Source: Fulvivirga marina
Lineage (GTDB): Bacteria > Bacteroidota > Bacteroidia > Cytophagales > Cyclobacteriaceae
DNA: 63,100 bases
Reading direction: 5' to 3'
Assembly (NCBI RefSeq): GCF_016775155.1
Contig: NZ_JAEUGD010000003.1
Span: 50,681-113,780, forward strand
Each line of letters opens with the position of its first letter. The first letter of the stretch is position 1. Positions 34,939-40,006 of the stretch are shown here, piece by piece. The translations under genes and the position numbers were made by a program. The notes beneath the pieces are model-generated. The model saw only the letters and a list, made by a program, of their open reading frames with translations, searched no databases and was not told the DNA's origin.

Positions 34939-36143
34939 TCAATTGGCATATGAATAAGTCATGTTTGGTATTTCAATCTCTGTCTGATTGCCGGATGTAA
35001 ATATTGCATTTACTCTATCAGAGCCGTTTAAAAGTTGCTGAAGCGTACCCAGGTTAATTTTTCCTATAATATACCCATGATCAGACCCTGTATAGCTCTC
35101 TGAGATACTTCTAAAGGCATTTTTGTCTATATCATCAATACCATTAAAACTTAAATATACCTCTGCTGTCTGGGAATCTCCTGAAGTAAAATCAGTTGAC
35201 TTGTAGCGATAGGTATAATCTTGTGTTAGTGCAATTACGTCCGATAGTACCGCAAGGCCGGTGGGTAAACTCCCTGCACCTTTTCCTATCATGGTTTGGT
35301 TATTGGCGTATTTTCCATTGATCAACACACAGTTAAATTCATTTTCAACATGATACAAAGGGTTATGCTCATCGATAAAGTGTGGTGCTACTAGAGTTGA
35401 GAGTACTTTGCCATCGAAATTGGCCTTAGCCAGCAGTTTAATTTTCAGGTTTCGCTCTTTAGCAAAAGCTATGTCTCTTTCTGTAATGTTTTGGATGCCC
35501 CAGTTAAATATCTTTTCTGGATGCTGGCGAAGCCCAAAGGCATGCTGAAGTATAATGCTCAGTTTAAATTTGGGATCAAAGCCGCCTACATCAAGAGTTG
35601 GGTCAGTTTCAGCAAAACCATTGACCTGAGCTTCATGAAGTGCTTCTTCATATGATTTTCCTTCCTGAAAGAGCTTGGTTAGTATGTAGTTTGAGGATCC
35701 ATTAAAAATGCCTTTGATCTCTTCAATATGCTCAGAAGAGTAGTAATCCTCCAGGTTTCGAATAATGGGAATGCTACCACACACTGCCCCTTCATAAAGC
35801 AGTGGAGTATTGTGTTGTTTTTGTAATTCAATAAGCTCGTCGAGGTTTTCGGCCACCATCTTTTTGTTTGCAGAAACTACTGCTTTACCTTTTTTTAAAG
35901 CGGCTCTTACAATTTCGAGGGCTGCCGTGGCATCGTCAATTAGCTCTACAATGATGTTTATATTTTCATTATTGAGAATCTCAGTGGCATCATAAGTGAT
36001 TTTATCGGTGTCAATGCTTCTTTCCTTTTCTTTTCTTTTAACACATACTTTGACTATTTCAGCATCTGTATCATTTTCTGAAAGAGTTTTATATAGCCCT
36101 TGGCCAACACACCCGAAACCAAAAAGCCCTATTTTATATTTAC

Positions 36144-36147
<4 letters not shown>
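34939..36147 (-). CDS. hom: Homoserine dehydrogenase
   Basis: The 402-residue enzyme reduces aspartate semialdehyde to homoserine. It shows the Rossmann start IGLFGFGCVGQGLYKTL, SANKKMVAENL, LYEGAVCGSIPIIRNL and the catalytic GSSNYILTKL, then ETDPTLDVGGFDPKFKLSI with the conserved Asp and Lys. The last ~80 residues could be a divergent ACT-like region. It is the third gene of metY-metX-hom; its start overlaps the metX stop by 4 bp. Homoserine made here is acetylated by MetX, so the three form a methionine module under the metY leader. Confidence 0.95.
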
Positions 36148-38518
<2,371 letters not shown>

Positions 38519-38653
38519 TAATCTTTTAGAACTTGAGAAAATTTTTGGGGTAAGTTGCTCTGAGTATAAATTACGCCTTTGTCAAAGTTGATCTGGCCTG
38601 GTAAATGAATCGAATGTATATGAGATTCCTATCCCAGCTTATTTCAGGGCAGG

Positions 38654-38661
38654 TGTTGTTT
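38654..38661 (-). promoter_or_regulatory. AAACAACA element after leader ORF (copy 1)
   Basis: The same 8-mer as the one upstream of metY, about 20 nt after the leader ORF stop. It could pair with the Cys-codon tract as an alternative to the upstream hairpin. Confidence 0.3.
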
Positions 38662-38680
38662 CGTTAAAGGCGGGAAAAGC

Positions 38681-38710
38681 CTAATAACAACAACAGCAAC
38701 AACAACACAT
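38681..38710 (-). CDS. Putative polycysteine leader peptide (Met-Cys7-Tyr) upstream of metY
   Basis: A ten-codon frame on the sense strand reads ATG, three TGT, one TGC, three TGT, TAT, TAG, that is Met, seven consecutive Cys, Tyr, stop. It lies inside the metY leader, 108 nt after the SAM-I aptamer and 175 nt before metY. Bases 38720-38710 and 38704-38694 form an 11-bp hairpin with one G-U pair; the ATG opens into its 5-nt loop, and Cys codons form the 3' arm. Established knowledge: attenuation leader peptides carry runs of the codon for the regulated amino acid, and polycysteine leaders are known in mycobacteria. Inference: ribosomes stall here when Cys-tRNA is scarce and change the leader fold. 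Alternative: a chance TGT microsatellite. No Shine-Dalgarno is present, as usual in this phylum. Confidence 0.5.
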   Translation of the reverse strand: MCCCCCCCY

Positions 38711-38720
38711 GTCGTTGCTG
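38694..38720 (-). promoter_or_regulatory. Hairpin enclosing the leader ORF start
   Basis: The arms CAGCAACGACA and UGUUGUUGCUG (sense strand) pair over 11 bp with one G-U. The 3' arm consists of Cys codons. A separate 7-bp helix can form between 38666-38672 and 38574-38580. No hairpin followed by a clear U tract is seen, so control may be translational or by Rho rather than by intrinsic termination. Confidence 0.5.
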
Positions 38721-38818
38721 AATAAAGAAATGATATAATCAGTCAGCGATTCAATTGATCGTTGAAAAATCGCTAGAAGACCTGTTTGATGTTGGATTGA
38801 TCTTTTCATTTTTCATCA

Positions 38819-38940
38819 ATTTATATTCTCCCGTATTCGTCACCTGACGAGCATTCCTGGGATCAGGATGTAGCACCTTGGCTTGGTTACCAGGTTGCTA
38901 GCGTTTCTCAGAGCCTGTCTCTCCACGCTTCTCTATAAAT
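38819..38940 (-). promoter_or_regulatory. SAM-I (S-box) riboswitch upstream of metY-metX-hom
   Basis: The minus strand contains the S-box core: P1 ATTTATA (38934-38940) pairing with TATAAAT (38819-38825); AGAGAAGCG and GGAGAGACAGGC with GAAACGC for P2 and its kink-turn; CTAGCAACC; and CCAAGGTGCTACATCCTG for the P3/J3-4 region. These are the conserved SAM-binding features. High SAM should reduce expression of the methionine genes. About 310 nt lie between aptamer and metY, far more than a simple expression platform needs, and the polycysteine ORF lies in that space. Confidence 0.9.
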
Positions 38941-38974
38941 CGATTTCTCAAAAGAGAGCATCGAATTGATCTTA

Positions 38975-39006
38975 CAAACGTAGTGAGCGTTTGCAATGTT
39001 TCCAAA
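38975..39006 (-). promoter_or_regulatory. Consensus promoter of metY-metX-hom
   Basis: On the minus strand TTTG (39003-39006), a 20-nt spacer and TACGTTTG (38975-38982) match the Bacteroidota promoter exactly. Initiation near 38968 would give a leader of about 460 nt that begins some 28 nt before the SAM-I aptamer. Confidence 0.8.
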
Positions 39007-39046: not shown

Positions 39047-40006
39047 CTATTTTGACCCATAATGATGTTCAAAAGTTTCTTTGGCAAGCATTTGAACCTC
39101 TTCTTTCAGCGTGTCAGGACTAATTATTGATACCTCTGAGCCAAACATGAGTAGCCAGCGAGCCAGCCCTTTGAAACTTGATGTCATAAAGGTGAGCTCT
39201 ACACCTTCGTTTACATCCTTTTCCTCAGTAAGTCCGAAATAATACTTCTGTTCTCCAAGATATCGGGATATCCTCTTCGATACAATTATCCGGGACTCCT
39301 GCATGTCCGTTCCCTGCATAAATGTCTTGAGGTGCTCTTGGTAAGATTGATGTTTTTCAGGGTCATAAAGCTCATCCAGTACACGAAGTTTTATGATCCT
39401 GTCGGTACGGAAATCCCTGAGGTCCTGTCTCATTCTGCAAAAGCCAATCATATGCCAATGGGATCCATAGTAACATAAACCTAATGGCTCTACCTGTCGG
39501 GTGGTGTATTGACCATTATAATTTGAAAAATACTCGAAGGAGAGTACTTTTTTAAGAGCTAATGATGATTGTATATCGGCTAAAAAGTGATCTGGGAATT
39601 GCTCTGCAGCAATGTTCGGTCGTTGTAAGACTTCAATATTCTGCTCAAGGTTTTCAAGGTAATCCTTTTCCTGCATTTTCAGAACAGCTTTGATTTTGAA
39701 CATTGCTTCTTCAAAGTGTAGCTGTATGGATTTGTCAGTATGCTTTTCAGCTAACTTGGAAGCCATCAGGATTGCTCCAGCTTCTTCTTTGGTAAAACTA
39801 ACAGGAGGCAAGTTGTACCCTTCCATAAGGAAATAGCCTTTTCCCGCTTCGGCGCCTATAGGAACCCCAGCTTCTTCTAGAGCTCGAATGTCACGGTATA
39901 CTGTTCTGAGGCTGATTTCAAACCGGTCAGCAATATGCTGGGCTGTAACCACTTTTTTGCTTTGCAATTGAATGAGAATAGCCGATAACCTGTCAATACG
40001 ATTCAT
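39047..40006 (-). CDS. YafY-like transcriptional regulator (HTH_11 and WYL domains)
   Basis: The 319-residue protein has an N-terminal winged helix (RLSAILIQLQSKKVVTAQHIADRFEISLRTVYRDIRALEEAG; quoted in part: FEISLRTVYRDIRALEEAGV) and a WYL domain with GLCYYGSHWHMIGFCR and RTDRI. WYL regulators bind small ligands or nucleic acid and are often repressors. Its start overlaps the SRPBCC gene stop by 4 bp, making it the last gene of lnb-SRPBCC-WYL. Its target is unknown. Confidence 0.9.
   Translation of the reverse strand: MNRIDRLSAILIQLQSKKVVTAQHIADRFEISLRTVYRDIRALEEAGVPIGAEAGKGYFLMEGYNLPPVSFTKEEAGAILMASKLAEKHTDKSIQLHFEEAMFKIKAVLKMQEKDYLENLEQNIEVLQRPNIAAEQFPDHFLADIQSSLALKKVLSFEYFSNYNGQYTTRQVEPLGLCYYGSHWHMIGFCRMRQDLRDFRTDRIIKLRVLDELYDPEKHQSYQEHLKTFMQGTDMQESRIIVSKRISRYLGEQKYYFGLTEEKDVNEGVELTFMTSSFKGLARWLLMFGSEVSIISPDTLKEEVQMLAKETFEHHYGSK

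Follow-up and report, generated by a model that had tools for sequence, protein, structure and literature searches.

Polycysteine leaderless short ORFs (sORFs) of mycobacteria were reportedly described by Canestrari et al. in 2020. Polycysteine ORFs are known there as cysteine-responsive attenuators (PMC9094748, PMC9031893, PMC13236596), and ilvB1 of M. tuberculosis is presented as a classical amino-acid attenuator (PMC13236596). In the same species, riboswitches are described as acting on the translation of upstream ORFs (uORFs), namely a B12 riboswitch on uPPE2 (PMC11260477) and the Mbox on uORF2 (PMC12810186); translation of uPPE2 is reported to be required for the downstream gene (PMC11260477), and Rho-dependent termination is reported for the Mbox-uORF2 leader (PMC12810186).

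Here, the leader of the metY-metX-hom operon of Fulvivirga marina was analysed within a window of 63,100 nucleotides, the whole stretch of DNA under study. In the open-access journal literature searched, no report was found of a polycysteine leader, or of a SAM riboswitch together with a leader peptide, in Bacteroidota. The combination of a SAM-I aptamer with a Cys-codon leader thus appears new, each component having known precedents.

The metY leader and its riboswitch

The features of the locus are collected in Table 1. metY is the first gene after the leader; the metX ORF shares 44 nt with the end of metY (37174-37217) and 4 nt with the start of hom (36144-36147), and translational coupling inside the operon is therefore suggested. 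The upstream neighbour, encoded in the same direction (39047-40006, minus strand), is a 319-aa protein with a helix-turn-helix-like look at its N-terminus, and its ORF ends 40 nt ahead of the promoter-like element.

Table 1 Features of the metY leader region and operon, in positions of the window
Feature	Position	Strand	Details
Promoter-like element, Bacteroidota type, TTTG-N20-TACGTTTG	38975..39006	(-)	Pattern match
Anti-P1 hairpin, TCGAT...ATCGA	38940..38964	(-)	3' arm overlaps P1 5' strand
SAM-I (S-box) riboswitch aptamer	38815..38944	(-)	P1 strands 38934-38944 and 38815-38825
Leader ORF, MKRSIQHQTGLLAIFQRSIESLTDYIISLFSNDMCCCCCCCY	38681..38809	(-)	42 codons and stop; dN/dS 0.111 in the genus
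Hairpin, first Cys codons with the codons that precede the run	38694..38720	(-)	11 pairs (10 in another fold)
Seven Cys codons, proposed sensor tract	38687..38707	(-)	4-8 consecutive Cys codons in 14 genus loci
Hairpin, last Cys codons and stop with downstream AACGAAACAACA	38654..38695	(-)	No U-tract
Untranslated interval, leader stop to metY	38506..38680	(-)	175 nt; intrinsic terminator not found
metY, O-acetylhomoserine aminocarboxypropyltransferase/cysteine synthase	37174..38505	(-)	TIGR01326, 665 bits, cut-off 495
Putative metX (name from the initial annotation)	36144..37217	(-)	ORF call; 44-nt overlap with metY
Putative hom (name from the initial annotation)	34939..36147	(-)	ORF call

On re-reading, 38710..38681 of the minus strand was found to be ATG (TGT/TGC)x7 TAT TAG, as the initial annotation had described it. 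The nine-residue ORF initiating at 38710 that had been drawn from these letters was given up: the frame is open upstream to an ATG at 38809, which gives 42 codons, the leader ORF running MKRSIQHQTGLLAIF...NDM-C7-Y with the cysteine run as its tail, and Met directly precedes the run in only 7 of 14 genus loci. These 14 loci make up the genus set, a fifteenth genus genome (G008) being without a close metY. The leader ORF is present in all of them and always starts with MKR; a run of 4-8 consecutive Cys codons, read as Cys in the leader frame in every locus, ends at the stop in 10 and falls 1, 1, 2 and 7 residues short of it in the other four. Over codons 2-17 of the 14 loci, dN/dS is 0.111, pN/pS in the shifted frames is 0.89 and 1.68, and differences at codon positions 1, 2 and 3 number 290, 177 and 574, a pattern which argues that the 42-codon ORF is a translated unit under protein-level selection within the genus. 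Of the parts of an attenuator, the run of codons for a pathway amino acid is present (seven Cys here), and leader translation is indicated indirectly by the in-frame dN/dS. In the alignment of metY leaders that had been proposed earlier, the Cys run was always in frame, while its length and the Met before it varied; no genus locus lacked the ORF or carried the repeat in another frame, either of which had been named as speaking against a leader ORF. Outside the genus the N-terminus is divergent and a Cys(/Met)-rich tail is kept. Profile searches with the leader peptide gave no NCBIfam and no Pfam match.

An 11-pair hairpin with the Cys codons in its 3' arm, likewise claimed before, is present at 38720..38694, yet it does not emerge as an essential element, since pairing with upstream sequence goes beyond shuffles (z<-1.5) in only 13 of 61 leaders and lies at z>1.5 in 2. 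As a general element the hairpin was rejected on the same count, together with the pairing to downstream sequence, which is not beyond shuffles (mean z -0.14, 61 leaders), and to the gene-start region (mean z -0.24). L001 was added by hand to this pairing analysis; it had been missed by rule because its Rfam match ends early. For the hairpin that pairs the last Cys codons and the stop (38654..38695, Table 1), a complement like AACGAAACAACA is visible by eye in the nearest relatives.

An intrinsic terminator was not found at this metY leader, and the pair of terminator and antiterminator that marks an attenuator is absent here; a terminator and an antiterminator-like part occur at another Cys-rich leader of this genome (L342). 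As a feature of metY leaders the intrinsic terminator was discarded, the scan having found one in just 6 of 113 leader regions (shuffles 0.2%): three sulfite-reductase-like ones (L178, L192, L195), L164, which is probably spurious because the site sits inside the downstream ORF, and two metY leaders without riboswitch match (L326, L331). The base composition of the untranslated interval (on average C 0.219 and G 0.138, 58 leaders) does not discriminate either, because the leader body has the same composition.

Missing from the initial annotation was a SAM-I riboswitch that adjoins the leader ORF upstream. The RF00162 match (38941..38834, minus strand) scores 49.9 bits against a gathering threshold of 44.4 (E 1.8e-8, covariance model), which places the aptamer in the family. 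Its eight-pair P1 ends at 38818, leaving 8 nt to the leader ATG at 38809. In 32 aligned relatives, picked partly for clear arms so that pair counts lean toward structure, P1 pairs in 98.4% of cells with no two-sided changes, and the anti-P1 hairpin pairs in 86.3%, one of its pairs swapping from A-U to G-C in 9 sequences, six of which are of the own genus. In the energy model without ligand, this leader is more stable in the anti-P1 than in the P1 state, by 6.2 kcal/mol; the 23 nt up to and including the leader ATG are 21% unpaired in the P1 state and 52% in the anti-P1 state. With the anti-P1 state favoured in the absence of ligand and the start more open in it, the model predicts that SAM binding should close the leader start; both by the position of the ATG past P1 and by the model, the aptamer helix would be able to hide the start of the uORF. 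From the end of the promoter-like element it is 165 nt to the leader ATG, with the aptamer in between, and the pattern of this element is one which we take to be the consensus of a Bacteroidota-type promoter. Among aptamers of the types defined below, 36 of 96 of type b and 13 of 112 of type a have a like pattern at most 110 nt ahead of them (shuffles 0.4%).

Cysteine-tailed leaders in other loci and genomes

A survey of 209 SAM riboswitch loci was assembled from the 30 best metY matches of relatives, the 30 best of the phylum, 40 loci taken by hand from own, family, order and class rows, and 110 family matches (30 automatic and 80 in list order), with one duplicate removed. Type b was set by the P1 sequence GATTTATA...TATAAATT, a definition made after examples had been viewed, and the rest were assigned to type a; the P1 strands of the window are those of type b. 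An ATG ORF of 18-110 aa lies at most 30 nt from P1 in 82 of 91 type-b loci (shuffles 19.5%) and near P1 in 28 of 118 type-a loci (shuffles 18%). At least three Cys among the last 12 residues were found in 55 of the 91 type-b loci (shuffles 0.2%) and at least four in 48 (shuffles 0/4550); the four Cys tails among the 118 type-a loci are all type-b-like by eye. By rule the tail is missing in 36 of 91 type-b loci, including 19 of the 59 that precede metY and 13 of the 16 that precede metZ, the rule having missed L011 and L180, in which a Cys run is present. Sorted by first downstream gene, type-b loci bear the tail before metY in 40/59, an OsmC-like gene followed by metY in 4/5, ferredoxin followed by metZ in 2/2, a sulfite-reductase-like gene in 3/3, cysH in 1/1, other genes in 2/2, metZ alone in 3/16 and metX in 0/3. 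Among the best phylum-level riboswitch loci (L031-L060), type b and the Cys tail are both 0/30. Anti-P1 stems of at least 8 pairs occur in 28 of 90 type-b loci (shuffles 7.8%) versus 1 of 98 type-a loci (shuffles 2.5%), and stems of at least 6 pairs in 50 of 90 type-b loci versus 42% in shuffles, a small excess; an anti-P1 excess in type b would therefore seem clear only for long stems.

Sixty peptides were selected for having a Cys tail, 59 of them by rule and L011 by hand. Given that choice, Cys makes up 63-82% at each of the last six positions versus 1.1% in the body, Met makes up 7.5% of the last 14 residues versus 1.2% in the body, and the longest Cys run reaches at least 4 in 40 of the 60.

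The metZ of this genome is metZ-like, scoring just below the O-succinylhomoserine sulfhydrylase cut-offs. Type-b riboswitches before metZ (L167-L169, L175, L182, L187, L188, L193, L203-L205) often have the same spacing from P1 to ATG and no Cys tail; some of the tail-less ORFs before metZ in family relatives reach 80-144 codons and form a natural contrast to the Cys-tailed leaders. In six relatives (L008, L010, L011, L012, L017, L155) an OsmC-like gene, recognised by eye, stands between the SAM/Cys leader and metY. Two Cys-tailed type-b leaders of genome G257, L164 and L184, precede an NhaC-family transporter and a RimK-like ATP-grasp protein and are possible further members of the Cys-leader set.

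For a scan of public metY loci, 80 were fetched and 77 used, L301, L303 and L329 being left out because too little upstream sequence was available. An ORF with at least 4 Cys in its last 12 residues was found at most 450 nt upstream of metY in 47 of the 77 (antisense control 0/77, downstream control 0/77), or in 44 of 70 without the seven loci that repeat survey loci. Under a looser rule (three Cys), the ORF lies behind the SAM core motif in 41 of the 52 public loci having the motif, among them Pedobacter, Mucilaginibacter, Hymenobacter, Pontibacter, Thermonema, Haliscomenobacter, Lewinella and Crocinitomicaceae loci; five of the 11 loci without a Cys-tailed ORF are from Algoriphagus or Cyclobacterium.

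The pattern TGYx6 is found twice in the genome (6.78 Mb), each time behind a SAM riboswitch (reversed-pattern control 0); the second site, on contig C37, is followed by a ferredoxin-like gene and by metZ. Scanning the whole class for TGYx5 with a stop after it was abandoned as a detector, giving mostly noise among the 30 loci read. Cys-run ORFs also stand at L211 (G039:C1:544311-544328), before a gene that is TonB-receptor-like by eye and without Rfam riboswitch match, and at L377 (G078:C27:259567-259584), before a gene of unclear function and without SAM core motif.

In this genome metZ is followed by a gene of the nitrite/sulfite-reductase family, which reaches the Pfam NIR_SIR domains, stays below the cut-offs of the NCBIfam models and adjoins cysH in a relative's copy; on the Pfam domains and the cysH neighbour, it is called sulfite-reductase-like here. 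The 30 best loci of 76 matching genomes (98 searched) were examined in the family. A Cys-rich ORF precedes the gene in 22 of these 30 best loci (antisense 2/30), and in a separate scan an intrinsic terminator was found in 22 and both together in 20; these terminator counts miss long loops (L347, by eye). In the 20, the stretch running from the last Cys codon to the terminator complements the terminator 5' half more than in shuffles (mean z -2.1, p 1.7e-6), with z below -1.5 in 15 and above 1.5 in none. The genome's own leader of this kind (L342) consists of MRQVLNNVIFCMCCTCCKHMKE, followed 28 nt later by a terminator of -20.1 kcal/mol. In four genomes (L178; L192/L334; L195/L340; L335, with a SAM riboswitch by core motif only) the gene is preceded by a SAM riboswitch and a terminator together with two Cys-bearing ORFs. 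The leaders of sulfite-reductase-like genes look like classical cysteine transcription attenuators and give the best mechanistic evidence in this analysis, and with this anatomy the case for Cys-codon sensing does not depend on the metY leader alone. Cys-rich ORFs were found in 0 of 53 SAM-riboswitch leaders of metH. Attenuation of cysteine synthase by Cys codons was rejected as a general feature, with just 2 of 30 loci (L394, L396), both terminator-like by eye.

Proposed regulation and alternative explanations

The sequences compared support the riboswitch, the competing hairpin, the fixed leader ATG, coding selection and the conserved Cys tract, as well as the recurrence before other sulfur genes and the terminator-antiterminator partners before sulfite-reductase-like genes. 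The metY leader is in our judgement probably a two-input RNA, in which SAM gates leader translation and charged tRNA-Cys decides on stalling at the leader end. With SAM bound, P1 (GATTTATA/TATAAATT) would form and hide the AU-rich stretch right before the leader ATG; without SAM, the upstream hairpin would take the P1 5' strand and the leader start would be open. If charged tRNA-Cys is scarce, the ribosome would stall on the Cys codons near the stop and metY-metX-hom expression would be allowed; if cysteine is plentiful, it would finish and leave, and the operon would be attenuated. At high SAM the leader would stay untranslated and the operon off. The ligand response, the stalling and the sign of the cysteine effect are what we infer from the arrangement. 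The same holds for the last step from Cys codons to metY, given that neither an intrinsic terminator nor downstream Cys-codon pairing beyond chance was found there, so that the attenuator anatomy of sulfite-reductase-like genes is not directly transferable. The favoured final step is Rho-dependent termination in the 175-nt untranslated interval, which the stalled ribosome would block; a stalled ribosome blocking Rho-dependent termination is known from E. coli tnaC. Against a pure codon sensor, the N-terminus is conserved in the genus more than such a sensor needs.

The strongest competitor, which we nevertheless hold to be unlikely, is that riboswitch and ORF are independent, the riboswitch controlling transcription and the ORF being a separate Cys attenuator that happens to follow. 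Such separation is seen at L286, L320, L323 and L294, which have a terminator-like sequence (by eye) after the aptamer and a Cys-rich ORF starting 310-383 nt past it, and at L295, L300, L312, L326 and L331, which carry Cys-bearing or Cys-rich ORFs before metY without riboswitch match. The type-b leader ATG, however, lies a few nt past P1, and a terminator-like site between leader end and gene occurs in only 4 of 61 leaders.

We give distinctly less credit to a small protein with a Cys tail working in trans (for example in metal or sulfur binding) and merely sharing the riboswitch of the operon. Purifying selection on the N-terminus within the genus would fit a functional product of this kind, but the N-termini of different genera, like those of the genome's two riboswitch leaders, look unrelated by eye, with only the Cys tail recurring, no candidate homologue was found in a collection of 5.8 billion proteins, and the Cys-rich ORFs before sulfite-reductase-like genes directly precede terminators with antiterminator-like complements. 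Marginally less probable again is a nascent Cys-rich chain that is itself a metal or redox sensor, with Rho-dependent termination downstream, as described for CruR, whose nascent uORF product can govern Rho termination through a CXXC motif (PMC9426467). The lack of an intrinsic terminator at the metY leader agrees with such a sensor; against it, the tail is mostly a run rather than a spaced CXXC (at least 4 in the 40 of 60 peptides), and the downstream genes are mostly sulfur and methionine genes, with ferredoxin, an NhaC-family transporter and an ATP-grasp protein besides. The caution of the initial annotation that a TGT microsatellite may lie in the right frame by chance can practically be dismissed: TGY repeats are not confined to such leaders (across 38 genomes, merged by hand with Rfam results, 23 of 43 TGYx6 sites lie just downstream of a SAM riboswitch and 20 do not), but shuffles come nowhere near the conservation of frame, position and context (in-frame Cys in 14/14 genus loci, a tail of at least 4 Cys in 0/4550 shuffle trials, and 47/77 public loci versus 0/77 antisense).

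Of the initial interpretation, a Cys-sensing leader ORF in Bacteroidota is thus well supported, by in-frame conservation, by recurrence before metY, ferredoxin-metZ, cysH and sulfite-reductase-like genes, and by the terminators that accompany the Cys-rich ORFs of the last group; the start at 38710, the nine-residue peptide and the essential hairpin were not retained. On a wider scale, we lean towards the view that several Bacteroidota orders use Cys(/Met)-codon attenuators on metY, ferredoxin-metZ, sulfite-reductase-like genes and cysH, and that in a large subset a SAM-I riboswitch, itself preceded by an anti-P1 hairpin, would act first and directly on the leader peptide, the gate opening only if SAM and charged tRNA-Cys are both low. 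If true, this would suggest how such Bacteroidota balance methionine against cysteine, would provide a case of a riboswitch acting through the translation of a codon-sensing peptide, and would give many sulfur operons additional, so far unannotated ORFs that can be tested; the Cys-tailed leaders before metY in Pedobacter, Mucilaginibacter, Hymenobacter and Pontibacter species make the idea directly testable.

Comparison with described systems

With SAM-I (S-box) riboswitches the aptamer shares a score that passes the Rfam cut-off; it differs in that competition comes from a hairpin on its upstream side and in that the closest start codon belongs to a leader ORF. Classical attenuator anatomy, consisting of regulatory codons, terminator and antiterminator, is found in most of the 20 of 30 sulfite-reductase-like loci with both parts, this genome's included, whereas the metY leader differs in having no intrinsic terminator; a Cys attenuator of sulfite reductase was not found described in the open-access journal literature searched. 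CruR is similar in that a uORF heading an operon encodes a Cys-bearing product and in Rho termination, which is the step favoured here, and differs in that spaced CXXC and copper are described there (PMC9426467), in place of the Cys runs and mostly sulfur genes seen here. uPPE2 (PMC11260477) and Mbox-uORF2 (PMC12810186) are, as far as these accounts describe them, not amino-acid sensors, whereas the gated ORF of Fulvivirga would bear a codon-based sensor for a second metabolite.

A close likeness also exists to the mycobacterial polycysteine sORFs, in which contiguous Cys codons also precede cysteine genes and for which ribosome speed is described as depending on Cys supply; in their descriptions these sORFs are leaderless and appear without riboswitch (PMC9031893, PMC9094748, PMC13236596). 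The Fulvivirga ORF is not leaderless, that is, its ATG does not coincide with the presumed transcript start, which is placed by the promoter-like element 165 nt upstream. Unlike the mycobacterial sORFs, it would start about 160 nt into the transcript, right behind a SAM-I aptamer, and it belongs to a set from another phylum, in which Met is often mixed into the tract and which is joined to intrinsic terminators before sulfite-reductase-like genes.
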